Source: Bacteroidia bacterium (GTDB taxonomy: Bacteria; Bacteroidota; Bacteroidia; JANWVE01). Taken from it: 59,416 nt of DNA. Below, piece by piece: positions 7,815-57,994 of this stretch. The notes under the pieces are model-generated. The model was not told the DNA's origin. It made no database searches and saw only the letters and a program-made list of their open reading frames with translations. How positions within the stretch are numbered: the first letter of the stretch is position 1; each line of letters begins with the position of its first letter. Position numbers and translations under genes: made by a program. The stretch lies in contig JANWVE010000001.1 of the NCBI GenBank assembly GCA_025057675.1, forward strand, positions 7,566 to 66,981, written 5' to 3'.

Positions 7815-7879
7815 TTTTTTTGGCGTGTCCTCGTGGGTATACGCGCAGCGTAACGCCCACAAGGACACGCCCAAAAAAA
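7815..7879. repeat. Short palindrome form of the repeat (copy 4)
   Basis: Consists only of the tip: TTTTTTTGGCGTGTCC, an inner stem TCGTGGGT/GCCCACAA (two imperfect pairs) around a loop rich in GCGCAGCG, then GGACACGCCCAAAAAAA. No arm or AT core. Lies between two tandem - strand genes. Confidence 0.85.
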
Positions 7880-15044: not shown

Positions 15045-15109
15045 TTTTTTGGGCGTGTCCTTGTGGGCATAAGCGAAAGTGTAACGCTCACAAGGACACG
15101 CCCAAAAAA
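15045..15109. repeat. Short palindrome form of the repeat (copy 7)
   Basis: TTTTTTGGGCGTGTCC, inner stem TTGTGGGC/GCTCACAA (one G-U-type pair), GGACACGCCCAAAAAA. No arms or core. Sits in a divergent gap; the remaining 168 bp up to 15278 hold only the next gene's promoter. Confidence 0.88.
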
Positions 15110-25158: not shown

Positions 25159-26772
25159 CTATTTGAGATATATTTTAAGGGTTTTTCCTGCATAAATACG
25201 AGTGTCATTTAATCCATTCCATGCTTGGAGTTCCTTTACTGTTACCTTAAATTGCACCGCAATTTTTCCTAAGGTATCCCCAGGCTGAATAGTGTAAATG
25301 TACTCTTTTTGTCCGTGGGGTATAATAATAGGTTGCGTACTTGGCTTAGACTTGTCTTTGGCTATTTTATCTAAACTTTCCTTTTTAATGGAGTCAATAG
25401 GTAAAATGTATGAATTCTGTGAAGGATTGTTTTGTAACCAACGTATAGTGTTCTTAAAGGCATCTGCTAAAAATTCCCCTTTTAGTTGATAACCTCTGGG
25501 AGTAAGATGAACCATATCTCTACTCATTAAACCTGCTTGATTCCACTCTTTAGCTACACCATATCCGCCCGAAATCCAATACCAATCGTAGATAATGCAA
25601 TGCTCTTCTTGAGCAATTTTGTGGATGAGATCTACAAATTTAACCGCTGATTTGAGAGATACATTTCTCTTTTTCATATCTTGAGTAGTTGTGAGCATGA
25701 TGACGGCATTAGGACACGCTGCTCGTATATTCTCAATAATTTTTTTGATTTCAGTTTCTAAAGATGTGTCAATTTTATCTTTGTATAGATAGTCGTTTGT
25801 GCCGTAGTCTAATATAACTAAGTTAGGGGAAAAAACAGGTAATTGCTGCATAAACAAATCTTGCAACAACACTGAGAGAAACCGAGATGCCCCTACCCCT
25901 GCATTATGCAATAATAAGCCTTTATTTTCTGCACTTTCTAAACTCATTCCGTAAAATTCAAAATGGTCTTGAATGGGCGATGTTTTAATAGTGCGCAAAG
26001 TAATAGTTTTGGAAGTAAAGTTATCTAATGATATAGTAATTTCAGGTTTTTCGGGATAAGAGAATGTTTTTACAAGAATTTTTTTATCGCCTGTTTCTAT
26101 CTCAAAATCAAAACAAGTAGTGTCTTTTTTGACAAGTAGTTTTAGAAGTGTGTAGTTTTTAATATTTTCTCTGTTGAGCGTGAAAGATAAAGTAGCCCCC
26201 TCCTCTTGGGTGTGCACAGTCATCCCAGATACACCCAAAGTTAATTTAGGTTTGAGTACAATACATCGTGCCGCGGTCCAATTTCCTGTACATGATGTAG
26301 TAACCGCACAAGAAGGGTAAGTCTTTACCGCACTGTAATTGACCATTATACCTTGTCCGCCATCACCTAATACTTTAATGAGTTCCTCTCGTAACCGTTC
26401 AGGATAATAACCTGATTGTAAATGCGAGTCGCCCATGTGAAGAATGACCAGCTTTTGTTTGTCTACATTTTGCCATGCTTGGTACAAGGGTTCAATATCT
26501 TTTCGGTCATAAAATTGAATGTAGTTGAGTTGAGGGTACATCCATGAGTATTTTTCTTGTGCGCGTACCTGCAAAGAGAAAGGAAAAAGAATACTGAATA
26601 AAGTTATAGCCGTGTGTACCTGCGTGAGGTGCATGACGCATGCCGTTAGGCAGTGCGGAGCGTAGCGAAGCACCGCAGCGAATGCGGAGTGCAGAATGCA
26701 CCGACCCAAGCGCAGCGCAGGGACACGCCCAAAAATAAAATATAACCCTACAAATGTTTTAACCTGCTTCAT
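25159..26772 (-). CDS. SGNH/GDSL hydrolase with C-terminal LysM; repeat arm in signal region
   Basis: Periplasmic or surface SGNH esterase/acetyltransferase-like protein. SGNH blocks: VILHMGDSHLQSGYY (Ser116 from ATG 26772), VILDYGTNDYLY, and the catalytic pair in DMVHLTPRGYQ; the C-terminal ~45 residues (YTIQPGDTLGKIAVQF, VKELQAWNGLNDTRIYAGKTL) are a LysM peptidoglycan-binding domain. The ATG at 26772 is 2 nt after the stop of the previous gene and is probably the ancestral start, but residues ~14-50 are encoded by a repeat arm (26621-26735) that splits the signal peptide. ATG 26634, supplied by the repeat itself, gives MHLTQVHTAITLFSILFPF as a normal signal peptide and may be the working start (491 residues). 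Confidence 0.82.
   Translation of the reverse strand: MKQVKTFVGLYFIFGRVPALRLGRCILHSAFAAVLRYAPHCLTACVMHLTQVHTAITLFSILFPFSLQVRAQEKYSWMYPQLNYIQFYDRKDIEPLYQAWQNVDKQKLVILHMGDSHLQSGYYPERLREELIKVLGDGGQGIMVNYSAVKTYPSCAVTTSCTGNWTAARCIVLKPKLTLGVSGMTVHTQEEGATLSFTLNRENIKNYTLLKLLVKKDTTCFDFEIETGDKKILVKTFSYPEKPEITISLDNFTSKTITLRTIKTSPIQDHFEFYGMSLESAENKGLLLHNAGVGASRFLSVLLQDLFMQQLPVFSPNLVILDYGTNDYLYKDKIDTSLETEIKKIIENIRAACPNAVIMLTTTQDMKKRNVSLKSAVKFVDLIHKIAQEEHCIIYDWYWISGGYGVAKEWNQAGLMSRDMVHLTPRGYQLKGEFLADAFKNTIRWLQNNPSQNSYILPIDSIKKESLDKIAKDKSKPSTQPIIIPHGQKEYIYTIQPGDTLGKIAVQFKVTVKELQAWNGLNDTRIYAGKTLKIYLK
26621..26735 (-). repeat. Single-arm repeat fragment inside a coding region (copy 11)
   Basis: One GC arm (115 bp) from GCGTGAGG to GGGACACGCCC, without core or second arm. 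Hairpin TGCC-GTTA-GGCA, and a closing pair GGTGCAT/ATGCACC that differs in both strands from the GGGCTAT/ATAGCCC of other arms. It lies in frame within the SGNH gene. Confidence 0.88.
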
Positions 26773-26774
26773 AT

Positions 26775-28109
26775 TCAGTTGTTTAAGACTATTTTTAACC
26801 TGTCTGAATGCCATGCAACATTAGCAAATACAGAGGTCGTAACTATTATTACATCCGTGATTTGATACTGATCGACTAACTTTTTCACCCCCTTACCGTC
26901 ATAATACCGATAATCTAAAGCAATGATTTTGTCAAAATGCTGCACTAAATAAGGTACAAAAGGATTTCCATAGGAATTTTTAAGCACAATTGCACGCCTG
27001 CCATTGTTTAAATCTGTATCAATCTCAATATAAGGGTGGTCCGAACCAATAAAAACACCATAGCTCGCCCCTCCTCGGGCATACTCCGCATATAAGGGTA
27101 TCCTGATTTTTTCTTTATATCCTTCCCCCTTGCCATAATACATTCGGTAGGGCGTGTTTATCTTGTAATACACTACTGAATCCATGCCTTTTTGTAAGCG
27201 TTCATCTTGTAATACATAATACAAAGAACCTAAAAACTTGGGAATTACCTTGCGTTGCATATTTTCCAAAGGAATGGCATCTATACCCGCTTCTTGACAA
27301 AAAGCTTGATACGCATAATACGCTCCTAAACCTGTCCAATGGTGGTCAGTGTTGAAGTAAATGTACTCATCTTTGTGCTCCTCTAAAATTTCATACACTT
27401 TTGGCATGTGCACTTGGCTATTAAGATTTTTGCGAATGCAATCTAAATTATCTTTTTCTGATGTGCCTCGCCTGTATTTTTCAGGGATATAAAAAGCACC
27501 GCTGGAAGGTGGTACTACGCAATGTACAGTAACATTTTTGGGCGATAAAGCAGAATGGTATTCATTCATGGTTTTAGCAAAATATTTAGCCATGCTTTCA
27601 TTGCCCCCAAAGAATTGTAGTGCCATGTTTTTGTAAATTAGGATTCCGTTTTTATATATAGCATCCTCTGTATCAGGGATATTGTTTTGTGTAGTTTGTG
27701 TTTGTATTAGGGTAGTATTTTTAACCTTGAACTCAGTGAGGGTATCTTTATTAGGCGAAATTTGTTTTTTTGCATTAGTAGTAGATAGGGTATCTTTTTT
27801 CTTAGGTAGAATAACAGGTTGTACGAAGGCTACTTCTTTATCTTGGATCCCTTTACTTTGTTTGAGTGTGCGGGCAGTTTGTAGCCAAGTTTCCCGATAG
27901 GGGAAATGATCAGCAATATATTCATCTACGTGGTTAGCGTATTGTTTTGACCACCATTGCGTCCATTCAAAGCGAGGGGTGGCAGCTAGTGTTCTTTTTT
28001 CTTGTTCGGAGTGAGTTTGTTTAGGAGTAAAGAAAAAGAAAACGCCGCCTATTATTAAAATAGTGCAGAAAATCCAAAATAAGAGGTAACTCGTAAAAAA
28101 ACGTTGCAT
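26775..28109 (-). CDS. DHHW/AlgJ-like SGNH-type protein
   Basis: 444 residues. One N-terminal membrane helix (YLLFWIFCTILIIGGVFFFF) anchors it, followed by the ENR-like start EQEKRTLAATPRF typical of DHHW/AlgJ/AlgX-family O-acetylation proteins. The family's Asp-His site is present: NTDHHWTGLGAYYAYQAFC with Asp255-His256-His257. A Ser/Thr/Lys-rich linker at about 95-150 is extra. It is first in the operon with the SGNH-LysM and MBOAT genes; together they fit an envelope polysaccharide O-acetylation machine. The ATG is supported by TACCTTTG 9 nt upstream. Confidence 0.85.
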   Translation of the reverse strand: MQRFFTSYLLFWIFCTILIIGGVFFFFTPKQTHSEQEKRTLAATPRFEWTQWWSKQYANHVDEYIADHFPYRETWLQTARTLKQSKGIQDKEVAFVQPVILPKKKDTLSTTNAKKQISPNKDTLTEFKVKNTTLIQTQTTQNNIPDTEDAIYKNGILIYKNMALQFFGGNESMAKYFAKTMNEYHSALSPKNVTVHCVVPPSSGAFYIPEKYRRGTSEKDNLDCIRKNLNSQVHMPKVYEILEEHKDEYIYFNTDHHWTGLGAYYAYQAFCQEAGIDAIPLENMQRKVIPKFLGSLYYVLQDERLQKGMDSVVYYKINTPYRMYYGKGEGYKEKIRIPLYAEYARGGASYGVFIGSDHPYIEIDTDLNNGRRAIVLKNSYGNPFVPYLVQHFDKIIALDYRYYDGKGVKKLVDQYQITDVIIVTTSVFANVAWHSDRLKIVLNN

Positions 28110-28927: not shown

Positions 28928-31042
28928 ATGAAAACAAAAGTTTTTTCTTTTTTCTTGACTTGCTTTTTGCCTATAACAATACTGCTTGCAAAAAATAAAA
29001 AATCTGATAGTCAGCTAACCAAAATTGATTATCTGTTCTTTATTGAAAATAAAGGTCAATGGCATAATGACGTCTTATATTTATGCCGTATGAGCGGTTT
29101 AGACGCCTGGATTACAAAGTATGGCGTCAATTACACGTTTTACAAGGTAGAACAAAATAAAGTAACAGAATTTTGTACTCTCAAAAATAAGTCCGAGGAT
29201 TTTGAAAATCAAACTTTACTTGGGCATAGAATACTGTTTGAGTTAGAAAATTCTAATCCTAACCCTGTACGAGAAGGTAAAAAGCAGATAGAAACCTACT
29301 ACAACTATTTCATTGGCAATGATGAAACTAAACATGCTACGTATGTAGGTTTGTATAAAGAGGCTTGGGTTAAAAATGTGTACGAAGGAATAGATATACG
29401 ATATTATTTTGACGAGGGTAGATTGCGATATGACTTTGTGGTACAACCGTACGCAGATATTTCGCAAATTAGGTTTAAACTAAGAGGGCAAGATAAGATT
29501 TATACTAAGGGTGAAACCCAGCTTTGTTTTACCACGCGTTTTGGTGAAGCATCACTATCAGATTTGTGTACTTACCAAGATAACCATATCATACCAAGCA
29601 AATTTATTAGAAATGGTGAAACATGGCAGTTTTTTTTAAGCGATTATGATAGAACTAAGCTCGTGGTGATAGACCCATTAGTATACTCTACTTATATTGG
29701 GGGAAATGATTTTGATCATGGTAAAGACATATTTGTAGATGGCAGTGGCTGCGTGTATGTAACAGGTATTAGCAGGTCAGCCGATTACGATATCACTCCT
29801 GGAGTTTTTCAAACAGCATTTCAAGGAGAAATGGATGTTTTTGTTACCAAACTTAACGCCGCAGGTAATAAAATAGAGTTTTCTACCTATATTGGGGGAG
29901 AGCGCTTTGATGAAAGTAGTGGCATATTCGTAGATGGTAGCGGTTGTGTGTATATAGCAGGATGGACATACTCATCTAATTATGATGTTACTCCAGGGGC
30001 TTTTCAAAAAAAATCTGGGGGATATATGGATGTTTTTATTACAAAATTTAACGCAACAGGCAGTAGTCTAGTATATTCTACTTATATTGGGGGAAATAAT
30101 GATGATAAAGGAGCGGGTATGTTCGTAGATAATAGCGGTTGTGTGTATATAACAGGCTATACATTATCACCCGACTATGATGTTACTCCTGGTGCGTTCC
30201 AAACTACACATGGAGAAGAGGAAGATGTTTTTGTTACGAAAATTAACGCAACAGGTAGCAGTTTAGTGTATTCTACTTACATTGGAGGAGGTTCGAGGGA
30301 CTATGGAACAGATATATTCGTAGATAATAGCGGTTGCGTGTATATAACAGGCTATACATTATCACTCGACTATGATATTACTCCAGGGGCATTCCAAACT
30401 ACAAACCAGAAATATGATGATGTCTTCGTCACAAAACTCAACCCAACAGGAACTGCGTTGATATATTCTACTTATATTGGTGGAAATAATTCGGACAAGG
30501 GGAATGCCATATTTGTAGATGGTAGCGGTTGTGCGTATGTAACGGGTTATACCTATTCAACCAATTACGATGTTACCCAAAAGGTGTTTCAAGCTACAAG
30601 CGAGCCACATAGTAATATCTTTGTTACAAAACTCAATGCAACAGGTAGCAGTTTAGTGTATTCTACCTACATCGGAGGAAATAATGAAGATGTAGCTAAT
30701 GACATATTCGTGGATGGTAACGGCTGCGCGTACATAACGGGTTATACAAAGTCAACCAATTATGATATTACTACAGACGCATTTCAATCAAAAAATGGAG
30801 GAGGAGAATTGGAGGACGCTTTTATTACAAAACTCAACCCAACAGGAACTGCTTTGATGTACTCTACCTACATCGGAGGAAGTAATTCAGATCAGGGCAA
30901 TGCCATATTTGTAGACAGTAACGGTTGTGTATATATAACGGGTTATACCTATTCAACTGATTATGATATCACACCAGGGGCGTTCCAAACGAAAAGTGGA
31001 GGAGACAAGGAAATTTTTGTTACTAAACTAAAACTTAGTTAA
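28928..31042 (+). CDS. Secreted SBBP beta-propeller-repeat protein
   Basis: 704 residues with a signal peptide (FFLTCFLPITILLA). Residues ~30-235 form the N-terminal domain that usually precedes SBBP repeats (FIENKGQWHNDVLYLCR). From ~250 to the end there are seven units of about 57-60 residues built on STYIGG..D.G..IFVD.SGCVYITGYT....YDITPGAFQT....DVFVTKLN, with positions occupied by SBBP propeller blades. The unit sequences are also alike at the DNA level. The usual C-terminal type IX sorting domain is absent: the protein stops within a blade at FVTKLKLS. Likely cell-surface, ligand unknown. The ATG follows TAATTTTA, a weak -7-like site. Confidence 0.85.
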   Translation: MKTKVFSFFLTCFLPITILLAKNKKSDSQLTKIDYLFFIENKGQWHNDVLYLCRMSGLDAWITKYGVNYTFYKVEQNKVTEFCTLKNKSEDFENQTLLGHRILFELENSNPNPVREGKKQIETYYNYFIGNDETKHATYVGLYKEAWVKNVYEGIDIRYYFDEGRLRYDFVVQPYADISQIRFKLRGQDKIYTKGETQLCFTTRFGEASLSDLCTYQDNHIIPSKFIRNGETWQFFLSDYDRTKLVVIDPLVYSTYIGGNDFDHGKDIFVDGSGCVYVTGISRSADYDITPGVFQTAFQGEMDVFVTKLNAAGNKIEFSTYIGGERFDESSGIFVDGSGCVYIAGWTYSSNYDVTPGAFQKKSGGYMDVFITKFNATGSSLVYSTYIGGNNDDKGAGMFVDNSGCVYITGYTLSPDYDVTPGAFQTTHGEEEDVFVTKINATGSSLVYSTYIGGGSRDYGTDIFVDNSGCVYITGYTLSLDYDITPGAFQTTNQKYDDVFVTKLNPTGTALIYSTYIGGNNSDKGNAIFVDGSGCAYVTGYTYSTNYDVTQKVFQATSEPHSNIFVTKLNATGSSLVYSTYIGGNNEDVANDIFVDGNGCAYITGYTKSTNYDITTDAFQSKNGGGELEDAFITKLNPTGTALMYSTYIGGSNSDQGNAIFVDSNGCVYITGYTYSTDYDITPGAFQTKSGGDKEIFVTKLKLS
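29686..31035 (+). repeat. Seven tandem ~171-190-bp coding repeats (SBBP units)
   Basis: Units start at each STYIGG codon block. Units three to seven share long near-identical stretches such as GTAGATGGTAGCGGTTGTG, which points to recent duplication or gene conversion within the array. Confidence 0.75.
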
Positions 31043-31139
31043 GTCAAAAAAAATAGTAAATTTTTTAGGAGTTTTCATGTTGGTTTAGACACAAGAAGCG
31101 GGAAGAAAACTTAAATAAAATGGATAAGTTTATTTTACT

Positions 31140-31546
31140 TTCTGGGCGTGCCCCTCGCTAACGCTCGGGTCGGTGCATTCCGCACTTCGCTATCGCTGCG
31201 GTGCTACGCTAACGCTCCGCACTGCCTAACGGCATGCTCCATGCCCCTCACGCAATTTAACCCTGTATTTTGAGGTTTTATTTTGTTTTTAGATATAGTT
31301 TTGCTTTATCTTATTTTTTATTTATTTTCAGATATTTGCAAGGTTAAACTTTGACTAGGTGAACTTTATTTCTTTGCAGCATTCTTCGCGTGAGGCATGC
31401 GGAGGGCGTGCGTCAGCACGGTGCGAAGCCCCTCGCCCACGCTTTTACCATTGCCCAGGGGGTGGGCGGGTGGGGCGCAGCACCGAAGCGAAGCGCAGCC
31501 CGCAGCACGCCGACCCGAGCGCAAGCGAGGGACACGCCCAAAAAAG
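31140..31546 (+). repeat. GC-arm/AT-core repeat, copy 13 (core-deleted)
   Basis: Only 407 bp: both arms are complete but the core is reduced to about 110 bp, with one palindromic unit where first and last units appear fused. Arm hairpins TGCC-GTTA-GGCA (left) and CGTGC-GTCA-GCACG (right). Tip loops here are GTTA (left) and GCAA (right) within the GAGC/GCGAG stem. Reading frame of the downstream tamB stays open through the right arm from 31359. Confidence 0.9.
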
Positions 31547-40409: not shown

Positions 40410-40417
40410 TACTTTTG
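40410..40417 (+). promoter_or_regulatory. Bacteroidota -7 element TACTTTTG
   Basis: Ends at 40417 and lies 20 nt before ATG 40438; it makes the in-frame GTG at 40417 an unlikely start. Confidence 0.45.
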
Positions 40418-40437
40418 TGCCTCTGGCAGATGCATTT

Positions 40438-41049
40438 ATGAAATTTATTTGTATTGGTAGAAACTACGCAGAGCATGTTAAAGAACTGAATAACCCACTT
40501 CCTTCCGAACCCGTTATTTTTATCAAACCTGATACTGCACTACTTCAAAACAAAGGTACTTTATATCTACCCGAGTATTCAAATAACGTGCATTATGAAA
40601 TTGAGCTCATTTTTAAGGTATGTTTAGAAGGTAAGTTTATTCAACCGCAGTACGCTCTCAAATATGTCAATCAAATTAGTGTGGGTATAGATTTTACAGC
40701 ACGTGATGTGCAAGAAGAGTGTAAAAAAAAGGGATTACCCTGGACAAAGGCAAAGTGTTTTAATGGTAGTGCGGCAGTAGGAGATTTTATTCCTTTATCC
40801 GATATAGATGATTTGAAAAACATTACCTTTGAACTGTTCCAAAATGGACAGATAAAACAGCAAGGTAATTCTGCTATGATGCTTTTTGATGTGCCTAATA
40901 TCATCAGTTACATTTCTACTATTATGACTTTGAAAAGGGGAGATATTATTTTCACAGGTACTCCCTCGGGGGTGGGTAGAACTGTACCAGGTGATATTTT
41001 AACAGGATATTTGCTGGGTAGAAAATTACTAGAAATTCAAGTGCAGTAG
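40438..41049 (+). CDS. Fumarylacetoacetate hydrolase-family protein (FAHD1-like)
   Basis: 203 residues, the short FAHD1-like form, which in characterised relatives cleaves acylpyruvates or decarboxylates oxaloacetate. Begins MKFICIGRNYAEHVKELNN; divalent-metal ligands are visible in HYEIELIF (two Glu) and GIDFTARDVQ (Asp); the C-terminal GDIIFTGTPSGVG is the family signature. The length and sequence favour a FAHD1-type enzyme over a true fumarylacetoacetase, so a direct link to the homogentisate dioxygenase gene is not claimed. Confidence 0.85.
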   Translation: MKFICIGRNYAEHVKELNNPLPSEPVIFIKPDTALLQNKGTLYLPEYSNNVHYEIELIFKVCLEGKFIQPQYALKYVNQISVGIDFTARDVQEECKKKGLPWTKAKCFNGSAAVGDFIPLSDIDDLKNITFELFQNGQIKQQGNSAMMLFDVPNIISYISTIMTLKRGDIIFTGTPSGVGRTVPGDILTGYLLGRKLLEIQVQ

Positions 41050-41309: not shown

Positions 41310-41915
41310 ATTTTTTTGGGCGTGTCCCTTCGCTGCGCTCGGGTCGGCGTGCTGCGGGCTGCGCTTTCGCTTCGGTGCTTCGCACTGCTGACGCACCCTC
41401 CGCATGCCTCACGCAGCAGTCTTTTGTCGTTTTACCTTGTTTTTAGACATATCTTTACTTTACCTTGTTTAGTGCTGATTATTAAGAATTTACAAGGTTA
41501 AAATTTTTTACCTTGTTTGAAGTGTTGTTATTTTACCTTGTTTTAGATTGATTTTCAAGTATATACAAGGTTAAACCTTGAATATATGGACTTTTGGTAA
41601 CCCTTTAACCTTGAATACTCAAGTTTTACCTTATTTTTCATTGGTTTTCAAGAATTTACAATATTAAATCTTGTTTTTATCTTGTTTGATATTCATTTTC
41701 AAGTACTTACAAGGTTAAAATTTGAATAGGTGGACTTCGTTTAATAGCTGCTTGCGTGAGGCATGCGGAGGGCAAGCCGTCAGGCTTGGTGCGAAGCCCC
41801 TCGCCCACACTCAAACCCCCACCCAGGGGGTGGGCGGGTGGGGCGCAGCACCGAAGCGATAGCGCAGCCCGTAGCACGCCGACCCGAGCGTAGCGAAGGG
41901 ACACGCCCAAAAAAT
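41310..41915 (+). repeat. GC-arm/AT-core repeat, copy 15 (forward core; reference copy)
   Basis: Cleanest copy for the core. Imperfect palindromic units, each TTTTACCTTGT to ACAAGGTTAAA, lie at 41459-41503, 41531-41575, 41624-41667 and 41675-41720. The unpaired central motif CCTTGAATATATGGACTTTT lies between units two and three. Arm hairpins TGC-GTCA-GCA (left) and CAAGCC-GTCA-GGCTTG (right). Both tips are the simple GAGCG(C/T)(A)GCG type. Confidence 0.94.
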
Positions 41916-41967: not shown

Positions 41968-42522
41968 ATGAAAATATACACAAAAACAGGAGATGAAGGC
42001 AAAACAGGACTAATTGGAGGTACTAGGGTCTTAAAATCCGATGTCCGTATAGAAAGCTACGGCACAGTAGACGAACTGAATAGCTACATAGGATGGATCC
42101 TCTCATTTGAGGAAATTAGTCCGCAACGGAGTTTATTGAGAGAAATTCAAGACCGTTTATTTACAATAGGTTCTTTATTAGCAGCTGACCCCGAGGGCGT
42201 GAAAATGCTTCTACCCGATTTGTTTGAGGAGGATGTTAAGTTACTAGAAATTACCATAGATGAGCTGTCTGCTCAAATTCCCCCGATGAAACATTTTGTA
42301 TTACCAGGCGGAGGTCAAATAAATGGGTTAATTCATGTAGCCCGATGTGTATGTAGGCGAGCAGAACGATGGGTAGTTGCTCTGCATCAAGAACAACCCG
42401 TAGACCCTCTTATTCTTAAATATCTAAATAGATTAAGCGATTATCTTTTTGTACTTTCAAGATGGGTAAATCATCGTCTTGGTGCAGAAGAAATACCCTG
42501 GATGCCCCGAAAAAATAAATAA
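41968..42522 (+). CDS. Cob(I)alamin adenosyltransferase, PduO type
   Basis: Makes adenosylcobalamin from cob(I)alamin and ATP. 184 residues. The PduO-type nucleotide site is at the N-terminus (KIYTKTGDEGKTGLIGG, then RIESYGTVDELNSYIGW), with FVLPGGGQINGLIHVARCVCRRAERWV in the helical core and a C-terminal NRLSDYLFVLSRWVNH. Its cofactor would serve methylmalonyl-CoA mutase, which fits propionate metabolism, but no mutase is in the window (prpD, of the other propionate route, is 16 kb away). ATG 41968 follows TACCTTTA, one base off the -7 consensus. Confidence 0.92.
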   Translation: MKIYTKTGDEGKTGLIGGTRVLKSDVRIESYGTVDELNSYIGWILSFEEISPQRSLLREIQDRLFTIGSLLAADPEGVKMLLPDLFEEDVKLLEITIDELSAQIPPMKHFVLPGGGQINGLIHVARCVCRRAERWVVALHQEQPVDPLILKYLNRLSDYLFVLSRWVNHRLGAEEIPWMPRKNK

Positions 42523-45474: not shown

Positions 45475-45985
45475 ATGGGCGTGTCCCTTCGCTGCGCTTC
45501 GGGTCGGGCTATTCCGCACTACGCTGACGCTCGGTGCTACGCTCACGCTTCGCACTGCCTTACGGCATGCTCCATAGCCCTCACGCAACCAGTATTTTGA
45601 TGTTTTACCTGATTTTTATACATATCCCTGCTTTACTTTATTTAATCTTGTTTATTTAATCTTGGTTATGAAATACTTACAAGATTAAGATTTTTTACCT
45701 TTTTTTATATTCATTTTCAAGTACTTGCAAAGTTAAACCTTGAATGCATGGACTTATCATAACATTTTAGCTCTGAATATGAAATTTTTATCTTATTTTG
45801 ATTTCATTTTCAGATAGATACAAGGTTAAGTATTGTACAAGTGAGATAGGTTCATTAGTCGCTTGCGTGAGGCATGCGGAGGGTGCGTCAGCAGTGCAAA
45901 GCACCGAAGCGAAGCGCAGCCCGCAGCACGCCGACCTTGCTTGCATGAGCGCAGCGAAACGCAAGCAAGGACACGCCCAAAAAAA
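45475..45985 (+). repeat. GC-arm/AT-core repeat, copy 16 (core shortened)
   Basis: Between two - strand genes. The core lacks about one palindromic unit (511 bp in total). Arm hairpins TGCC-GTAA-GGCA (left) and TGC-GTCA-GCA (right). Left arm closing pair GGGCTAT/ATAGCCC. Right tip stem TTGCTTGC/GCAAGCAA, shared only with copy 10. Confidence 0.92.
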
Positions 45986-52245: not shown

Positions 52246-52299
52246 TTTTTTGGGCGTGTCCCTCGCTGCGCGTATGCCCACAAGGACACGCCCAAAAAA
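52246..52299. repeat. Short palindrome form of the repeat, hybrid (copy 19)
   Basis: GGGCGTGTCC and GGACACGCCC are intact, but the inside joins two tip types: CTCGCTGCGCG (simple tip) on the left and GCCCACAA (GTGGGC-type) on the right, which do not pair with each other. Confidence 0.85.
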
Positions 52300-57929: not shown

Positions 57930-57994
57930 GTTTTTTGGGTGTGTCCTTGTGAGTGTTTCACCTGGCTCATGCCCACAAGGACACACCCAGAAAT
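57930..57994. repeat. Short palindrome form of the repeat with compensated tips (copy 21)
   Basis: Both tips share a paired change: GGGTGTGTCC at the left and GGACACACCC at the right, against GGGCGTGTCC/GGACACGCCC elsewhere. Inner stem TTGTGAGT/GCCCACAA is partly mispaired. Lies in a convergent gap of 85 bp. Confidence 0.85.

Follow-up and report, generated by a model that had tools for sequence, protein, structure and literature searches.

The AT-rich core of a 591-bp dispersed repeat probably represents a phase-locked array of half-sites that would be bound as double-stranded DNA by a multimeric protein, in the middle of a REPIN/BIME-like composite repeat. We hold this reading, which is based on sequence comparison, with moderate confidence. 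The element has a composite anatomy and an intergenic location, compensatory pairing occurs in its arms only, the spacing within its core is fixed, the same core columns are constrained in two genomes, and one empty site has been found in a relative. The repeat was studied in the window, a stretch of 59,416 nucleotides from a Bacteroidia-like genome of 2.89 Mb (G000), with comparison to two genomes of the same genus (G001 and G002). A first-pass annotation of the window had described an AT core built from four imperfect palindromes and had proposed a protein-binding array. The observation is real and far beyond chance, while several of its details are corrected here.

Anatomy of the composite repeat

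The repeat extends from 41318 to 41908, has the ends TTTTTTGGGCGTGTCC and GGACACGCCCAAAAAA, and consists of a left half-element, the AT-rich core, and a longer, inverted right half-element. It is non-coding, and its half-elements, which are 98-160 nt long, are mutually inverted. The features of this copy and its neighbour genes are as follows.

40417-41049, + strand: upstream neighbour gene, FAA hydrolase family
41318-41415, + strand: left half-element (short arm), GGGCGTGTCC...CCTCACGCA, with a T-run before it
41416-41752, + strand: AT-rich core; the core profile is matched over its full length at 41415-41742
41430-41441, + strand: single extra half-site TTTTACCTTGTT, upstream of unit 1
41459-41502, + strand: unit 1, 44 bp; its family consensus TATCAAATACTTA fits the IHF consensus WATCAANNNNTTR
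41506-41517, + strand: single extra half-site TTTTACCTTGTT, between units 1 and 2
41532-41575, + strand: unit 2, 44 bp
41576-41624, + strand: linker CCTTGAATATATGGACTTTT...TTTAACCTTGAATACTC, between units 2 and 3
41625-41668, + strand: unit 3, 44 bp
41676-41719, + strand: unit 4, 44 bp
41715-41737, + strand: linker motif repeated after unit 4 (TTAAAATTTGAATAGGTGGACTT)
41753-41908, - strand: right half-element (long arm), inverted, with an A-run after it
41968-42522, + strand: downstream neighbour gene, cobalamin adenosyltransferase, starting 60 bp past the element

The four units had been measured as 45, 45, 44, and 46 bp; they align without gaps at 44 nt each, and 28 of the 44 columns are identical in all four. 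Each unit is laid out as TTTACCTTGTTT, four to five variable positions, an 11-bp centre, four variable positions, and TTACAAGGTTAAA, with units 3 and 4 deviating in the outer arms. In the alignment of 84 copies, the centres of units 1 to 4 have the consensus sequences TTGATTATCAA, TTCATTTTCAA, TTGATTTTCAA, and TTCATTTTCAG, respectively. The string ATTGATTTTCAAG, which had been given for the units in general, is exact in unit 2, and the others read CTGATTATTAAG, ATTGGTTTTCAAG, and ATTCATTTTCAAG. Likewise, CCTTGAATACATGGACTTTT and TTTAACCCTGAAT are strings of the family consensus that match the window exactly only once and twice, respectively, and copy 15 reads CCTTGAATATATGGACTTTTGG and TTTAACCTTGAAT. 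The central motif had been regarded as unique, which it is not, for a relative follows unit 4 (41715-41737). Beyond the four units, the core holds two single half-sites, at 41430 and 41506. Four inverted pairs of 44 bp and additional single copies of the half-site (TTTA[A]CCTTGTWA or its inverse) would thus make up the putative array, which has about ten half-sites in all.

Copy number and forms

The exact end GGGCGTGTCC occurs 730 + 719 times genome-wide, compared to 2 + 5 times for a reversed-pattern control, and these approximately 1,450 exact ends suggest roughly 700 elements. The genome-wide motif search that had been suggested as a check on the array gave 1,202 matches to the spaced motif TCAAN4TTACAAGGTT (at most one mismatch) versus 1 for the reversed-pattern control. 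Stretches of G000 amounting to 425 kb, on which the counts rest together with the genome-wide pattern counts, contain 104 paired ends, and complete pairs alone account for 13.7% of this DNA. Few bacterial genomes are known in which one non-coding repeat family makes up about one seventh of the DNA.

In the window, 13 full-length cores are accompanied by two shortened ones (31263-31351 and 45586-45851), which bears out the earlier report of shortened copies. Core-less forms of 42-106 bp are found repeatedly in both G000 and G002. Tiny elements, in which only the terminal hairpin is present between T-run and A-run, are seen in the window at 7821-7872, 15051-15103, 52252-52293, and 57937-57988; they are 42-53 bp long and hold the extreme ends only. 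A solitary half-element at 26621-26735 overlaps the 5' part of the ORF 25159-26814 (- strand), the true start codon of which probably lies downstream of this half-element. A different type of repetition is present at 28928-31042, where a gene with DUF7948 and SBBP beta-propeller repeats shows up as a 195-bp direct DNA repeat (approximately 29679 to 31076).

No Rfam family was matched in the window, viral contigs contained no exact match to the core or arm patterns, and no relevant description of GGGCGT/CCCTCACGC repeats in Bacteroidetes was found in the open-licence literature.

Relatives and comparison with known repeat systems

Most elements of G002 are one-unit forms of about 347 bp; it also has core-less forms of 92-106 bp as well as some longer ones of 600 bp. 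As contamination is listed at 5% for this genome, part of the few 600-bp copies may be foreign to it. G001 has single half-elements of 101-133 nt, which lack a core. Half-elements related to these are also present in further families of the class, G049 and G019 being examples. Solitary half-elements of about 110 nt with GGGCGTG...CCTCACGCA ends and covarying hairpins were observed on L153, L154, L155, L157, and others in G001 and on L162, L163, and L164 in other families, and some of them adjoin tRNA genes. No published description was found for this structured half-element of about 110 nt, which is widespread in Bacteroidota in solitary form. The simplest reading would be that a widespread folding half-element became paired and gained a core in this lineage.

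BIME-1 consists of two opposed REPs separated by a sequence with which IHF interacts (PMC2817692). In REPINs, two REPs form an inverted doublet with a spacer; these doublets are dispersed extragenically, and their arms are predicted to fold (PMC3116915). Like BIME-1/RIB (RIP) of E. coli, the element described here has two opposed palindromic units around a spacer, is intergenic, and is present in many copies. In contrast to the 20-40-bp REPs of BIME-1/RIB, its half-elements are multi-branched structures of 98-160 nt with five helices; in further contrast, its core of about 320 bp carries four phased units, and its roughly 700 copies represent about 14% of the DNA. Compared with the IHF-binding spacer of BIME-1/RIB, the motif in the core appears only partly IHF-like. 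With REPINs, the element shares the inverted doublets with a spacer, the extragenic location, and the folding arms, whereas its spacer is long and constrained. The inverted doublet is the dispersed unit of REPINs; here, doublets dominate in G000 and single half-elements in G001. No match to Y1_Tnp (PF01797) was found in G000, G001, and G002, which are 91-99% complete, and a RAYT/Y1 transposase is therefore rejected as the mover in these three genomes. As the tests for REP-sized units and for RAYT failed, the element is not filed as a member of BIME-1/RIB or REPIN. These are nevertheless the known systems closest to it; it resembles them in layout and, by analogy, may resemble them in the way it works.

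BrickBuilt, a MITE of Porphyromonas gingivalis, is present in 19 copies and contains direct tandem repeats of 23 bp (PMC4596501). In common with such MITEs of Bacteroidota, the element is intergenic and has inverted-repeat ends, internal repeated units, and no coding capacity; in contrast to BrickBuilt, it has about 700 copies, and its 44-bp units are inverted and have a fixed, non-tandem spacing. Terminal inverted repeats, lack of coding capacity, and a high copy number are features of MITEs, as is an empty site in a relative, of which there is one case (between hisC and hisB, see below). The element is flanked by a T-run and an A-run with no clear target-site duplication, and the general description of a MITE applies apart from target duplication and a partner transposon. 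Its mobility is suggested by the copy number, the empty site, and the lineage-specific forms.

A mobile element might carry the array for its own use. A putative transposase or recombinase of the element would then bind it as an internal enhancer or for synapsis, and the constraint on the core would reflect the ability to spread and not a host function. The near restriction of the motif to elements and its fixed geometry fit this explanation, as does the lineage-specific difference between the one-unit cores of G002 and the four-unit cores of G000. However, half-elements without a core stand alone in G001, and the short core-less forms occur in both G000 and G002, from which it follows that the core is unnecessary for the presence of the ends. 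Moreover, the subfamily structure expected from a few master copies was not seen, and no autonomous partner was found, Y1_Tnp being the transposase family searched. We regard this explanation as unlikely.

Constraint on the core

The core was analysed in an alignment of 84 full copies, in which 17% of the core bases differ from the consensus. The distances between core anchors (62, 12, 61, 39, 54, and 51 bp) are the same in approximately 80-95% of the copies. The ratio of small indels to substitutions is 0.019 for the core, compared to 0.305 for the left and 0.146 for the right arm, a comparison in which hairpin instability may raise the indel rates of the arms and thereby flatter the core. 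As a point against the array reading, substitutions per site are fewer in the arms (0.09-0.10) than in the core (0.17). The unit-to-unit distances of 73, 93, and 51 bp correspond to about 7, 9, and 5 helical turns, which would fit binding on one face.

Conservation is unevenly distributed. Among the 239 A/T columns of the core, 104 are conserved to at least 95% and 40 to at most 75%, with a standard deviation of 0.146 versus a binomial expectation of 0.036, and differences in mutation rate between bases or contexts could explain part of this heterogeneity. In 12 full cores of the congener G002, the conserved A/T columns agree to 97.4% and the variable ones to 63.5%.

The core could instead be a passive spacer derived from an old tandem duplication that is now drifting, its copies resembling each other through common origin and gene conversion only. 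In line with this, pairwise identity is lower in the core (0.75) than in the arms (0.86-0.88), and the copies look star-like. The strong differences in rate from site to site, which are repeated in the second genome, and the near absence of indels make such drift improbable. When copies are compared in pairs, the similarity of one part (left arm, core halves, or right arm) hardly correlates with that of another (r from -0.02 to 0.26), a pattern that either a star-like expansion or extensive exchange among copies would produce. Given a star-like history, the differences in rate between columns indicate that the copies themselves are under selection, an effect that is not separable here from gene conversion. 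Free decay of the core with the arms kept, which had been named as an observation that would speak against an array, is not what is found, as the spacing is locked and indels are few. Under the favoured reading of a bound array, the putative binding would be what constrains the core.

Position and orientation relative to genes

Cores lie outside called genes in 137 of 139 cases, and a TAnnTTTG-like string follows the first half-site in the core consensus. Both would suit a transcription signal for the neighbouring genes, such as a promoter, terminator, or insulator. However, cores show no preferred orientation with respect to co-directional genes (34:39, p=0.64), and a directional signal is rejected on this ground. 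Furthermore, elements are frequent in gene gaps of every type in G000 (39% where the flanking genes are co-directional, 54% where they converge, and 55% where they diverge), and the T-run before and the A-run after their ends are in the opposite arrangement to that of an intrinsic terminator. A role in transcription is thus very unlikely.

Folding of arms and core

The two types of palindrome in the element differ in their pattern of change. In the palindrome arms of the core, pairing equals the chance expectation at essentially all variable pairs of the 84 copies, C-G changes to C-A or T-G at the frequency seen in shuffled data, and there is no surplus of double changes. In contrast, hairpin 1 of the half-elements occurs in several variants (CCTTGTGGGC/GCCCACAAGG, CCTTGCTTGC/GCAAGCAAGG, CCTTGCCCAC/GTGGGCAAGG, and others), the strands of which are complementary within each copy and not between copies. 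A fold of the half-element from 29 sequences of three genomes has five helices and shows both-side changes in 14 of 33 pairs. Doubly changed cells number 77 versus 24.7 +/- 4.8 in shuffles; since this structure was drawn from the same sequences, it is somewhat favoured compared to the slid controls. RNAalifold, unaided, produced a nearly identical fold.

Compensatory changes in the arms and their absence from the core identify the arms as the folding sequence and not the core. The idea that the core palindromes, which are inverted repeats by sequence, form hairpins or cruciforms in RNA or single-stranded DNA is rejected on the absent covariation and is very unlikely; moreover, units 2 and 4 have conserved centres that interrupt the palindromic symmetry. 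The arms thus act like hairpins that fold and the core like half-sites spaced along duplex DNA, in partial support of the first-pass annotation. The inverted multi-hairpin half-elements that flank the array fold and are probably recognised during spread. This split within one element, between covarying arms and a core that keeps its spacing and does not covary, provides a testable case of an interspersed repeat with a phased protein-binding array.

Candidate binding proteins

The likeness of the core to IHF sites is concentrated in unit 1. An exact WATCAANNNNTTR is present in 62 of the 84 cores, with 69 sites versus about 4.5 expected, mainly in unit 1. The spacing from the unit centre to the following TTA is that of the IHF consensus; in the 84 cores, the four bases 3' of the centre are mostly variable and the TTA is mostly fixed. 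Units 2-4 of the family consensus have TTTCAA/G instead, so that WATCAANNNNTTR fits unit 1 alone. The one-unit cores of G002 keep TTTACCTTGTTT...TTACAAG..TAAA and have a different centre, TTGAAGTACAA. This difference weakens an IHF site as the single explanation and leaves the half-sites as the common denominator, the IHF likeness being a lead only.

In a search for HU/IHF-domain proteins, one clear match was obtained (L188, E 2e-19), and the second, a 375-aa frame, was weak; an IHF-like pair was not found, with one good match and a weak second one per genome. The half-sites are almost confined to elements, and their scarcity elsewhere does not suggest a general host regulator. An excess of TTACAAGGTTAAA outside elements in G001 was only apparent, as these matches lie mostly within coding genes. 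The binder would accordingly be sought among DNA-bending nucleoid proteins of the HU/IHF class, possibly recruited by the array, or could be an element-specific protein. The proposed protein-binding array is thus partly supported, and of all readings it agrees best with the sequence, given the lack of compensation in the core palindromes, the locked spacing, the few indels, the uneven constraint in two genomes, and the gene-independent orientation. It requires modification in that the centre is not unique, the IHF-like centre varies between subfamilies, and the core is part of a composite with folding arms.

Association with changes in gene order

The element would have spread to about 700 intergenic places, and it is associated with breaks in gene order. 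Among junctions at which both flanking genes match in a congener, adjacency is kept at 1 of 24 element-bearing junctions, compared to 14 of 16 element-free gaps of at least 60 bp and 41 of 43 below that length. Misassembly of short reads at repeats is a caveat on the lost adjacency, though contigs tend to stop within the arms and not to run through them. A wider test, which excludes genes near contig ends and is safer in its G001 half because contig ends in G002 are often at elements, found the neighbour kept at 0 of 88 testable element junctions of G000 versus 9 of 29 element-free gaps of at least 60 bp.

The only conserved element junction is the empty site. In G000, a 365-bp one-unit element lies between hisC and hisB (L126:8782-9147, contig C11), whereas the two genes overlap by 4 bp in G001 (L154:1495-1510, contig C130). 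This indicates that elements are gained or lost.

The elements could cause the breaks in gene order, or they could accumulate where breaks are tolerated. More speculatively, they might act as chromosome-wide module boundaries that combine an array for an architectural protein with recombination-promoting arms, occupy more than 40% of gene gaps, and shuffle gene order into element-bounded blocks; we consider such a role doubtful. Since adjacency is lost at nearly every element, this genome offers a natural experiment on the reshaping of chromosomes by dispersed repeats.

Most contigs of G002 (L166-L185) begin inside a half-element, and the repeat is probably the main reason why these assemblies are fragmented.
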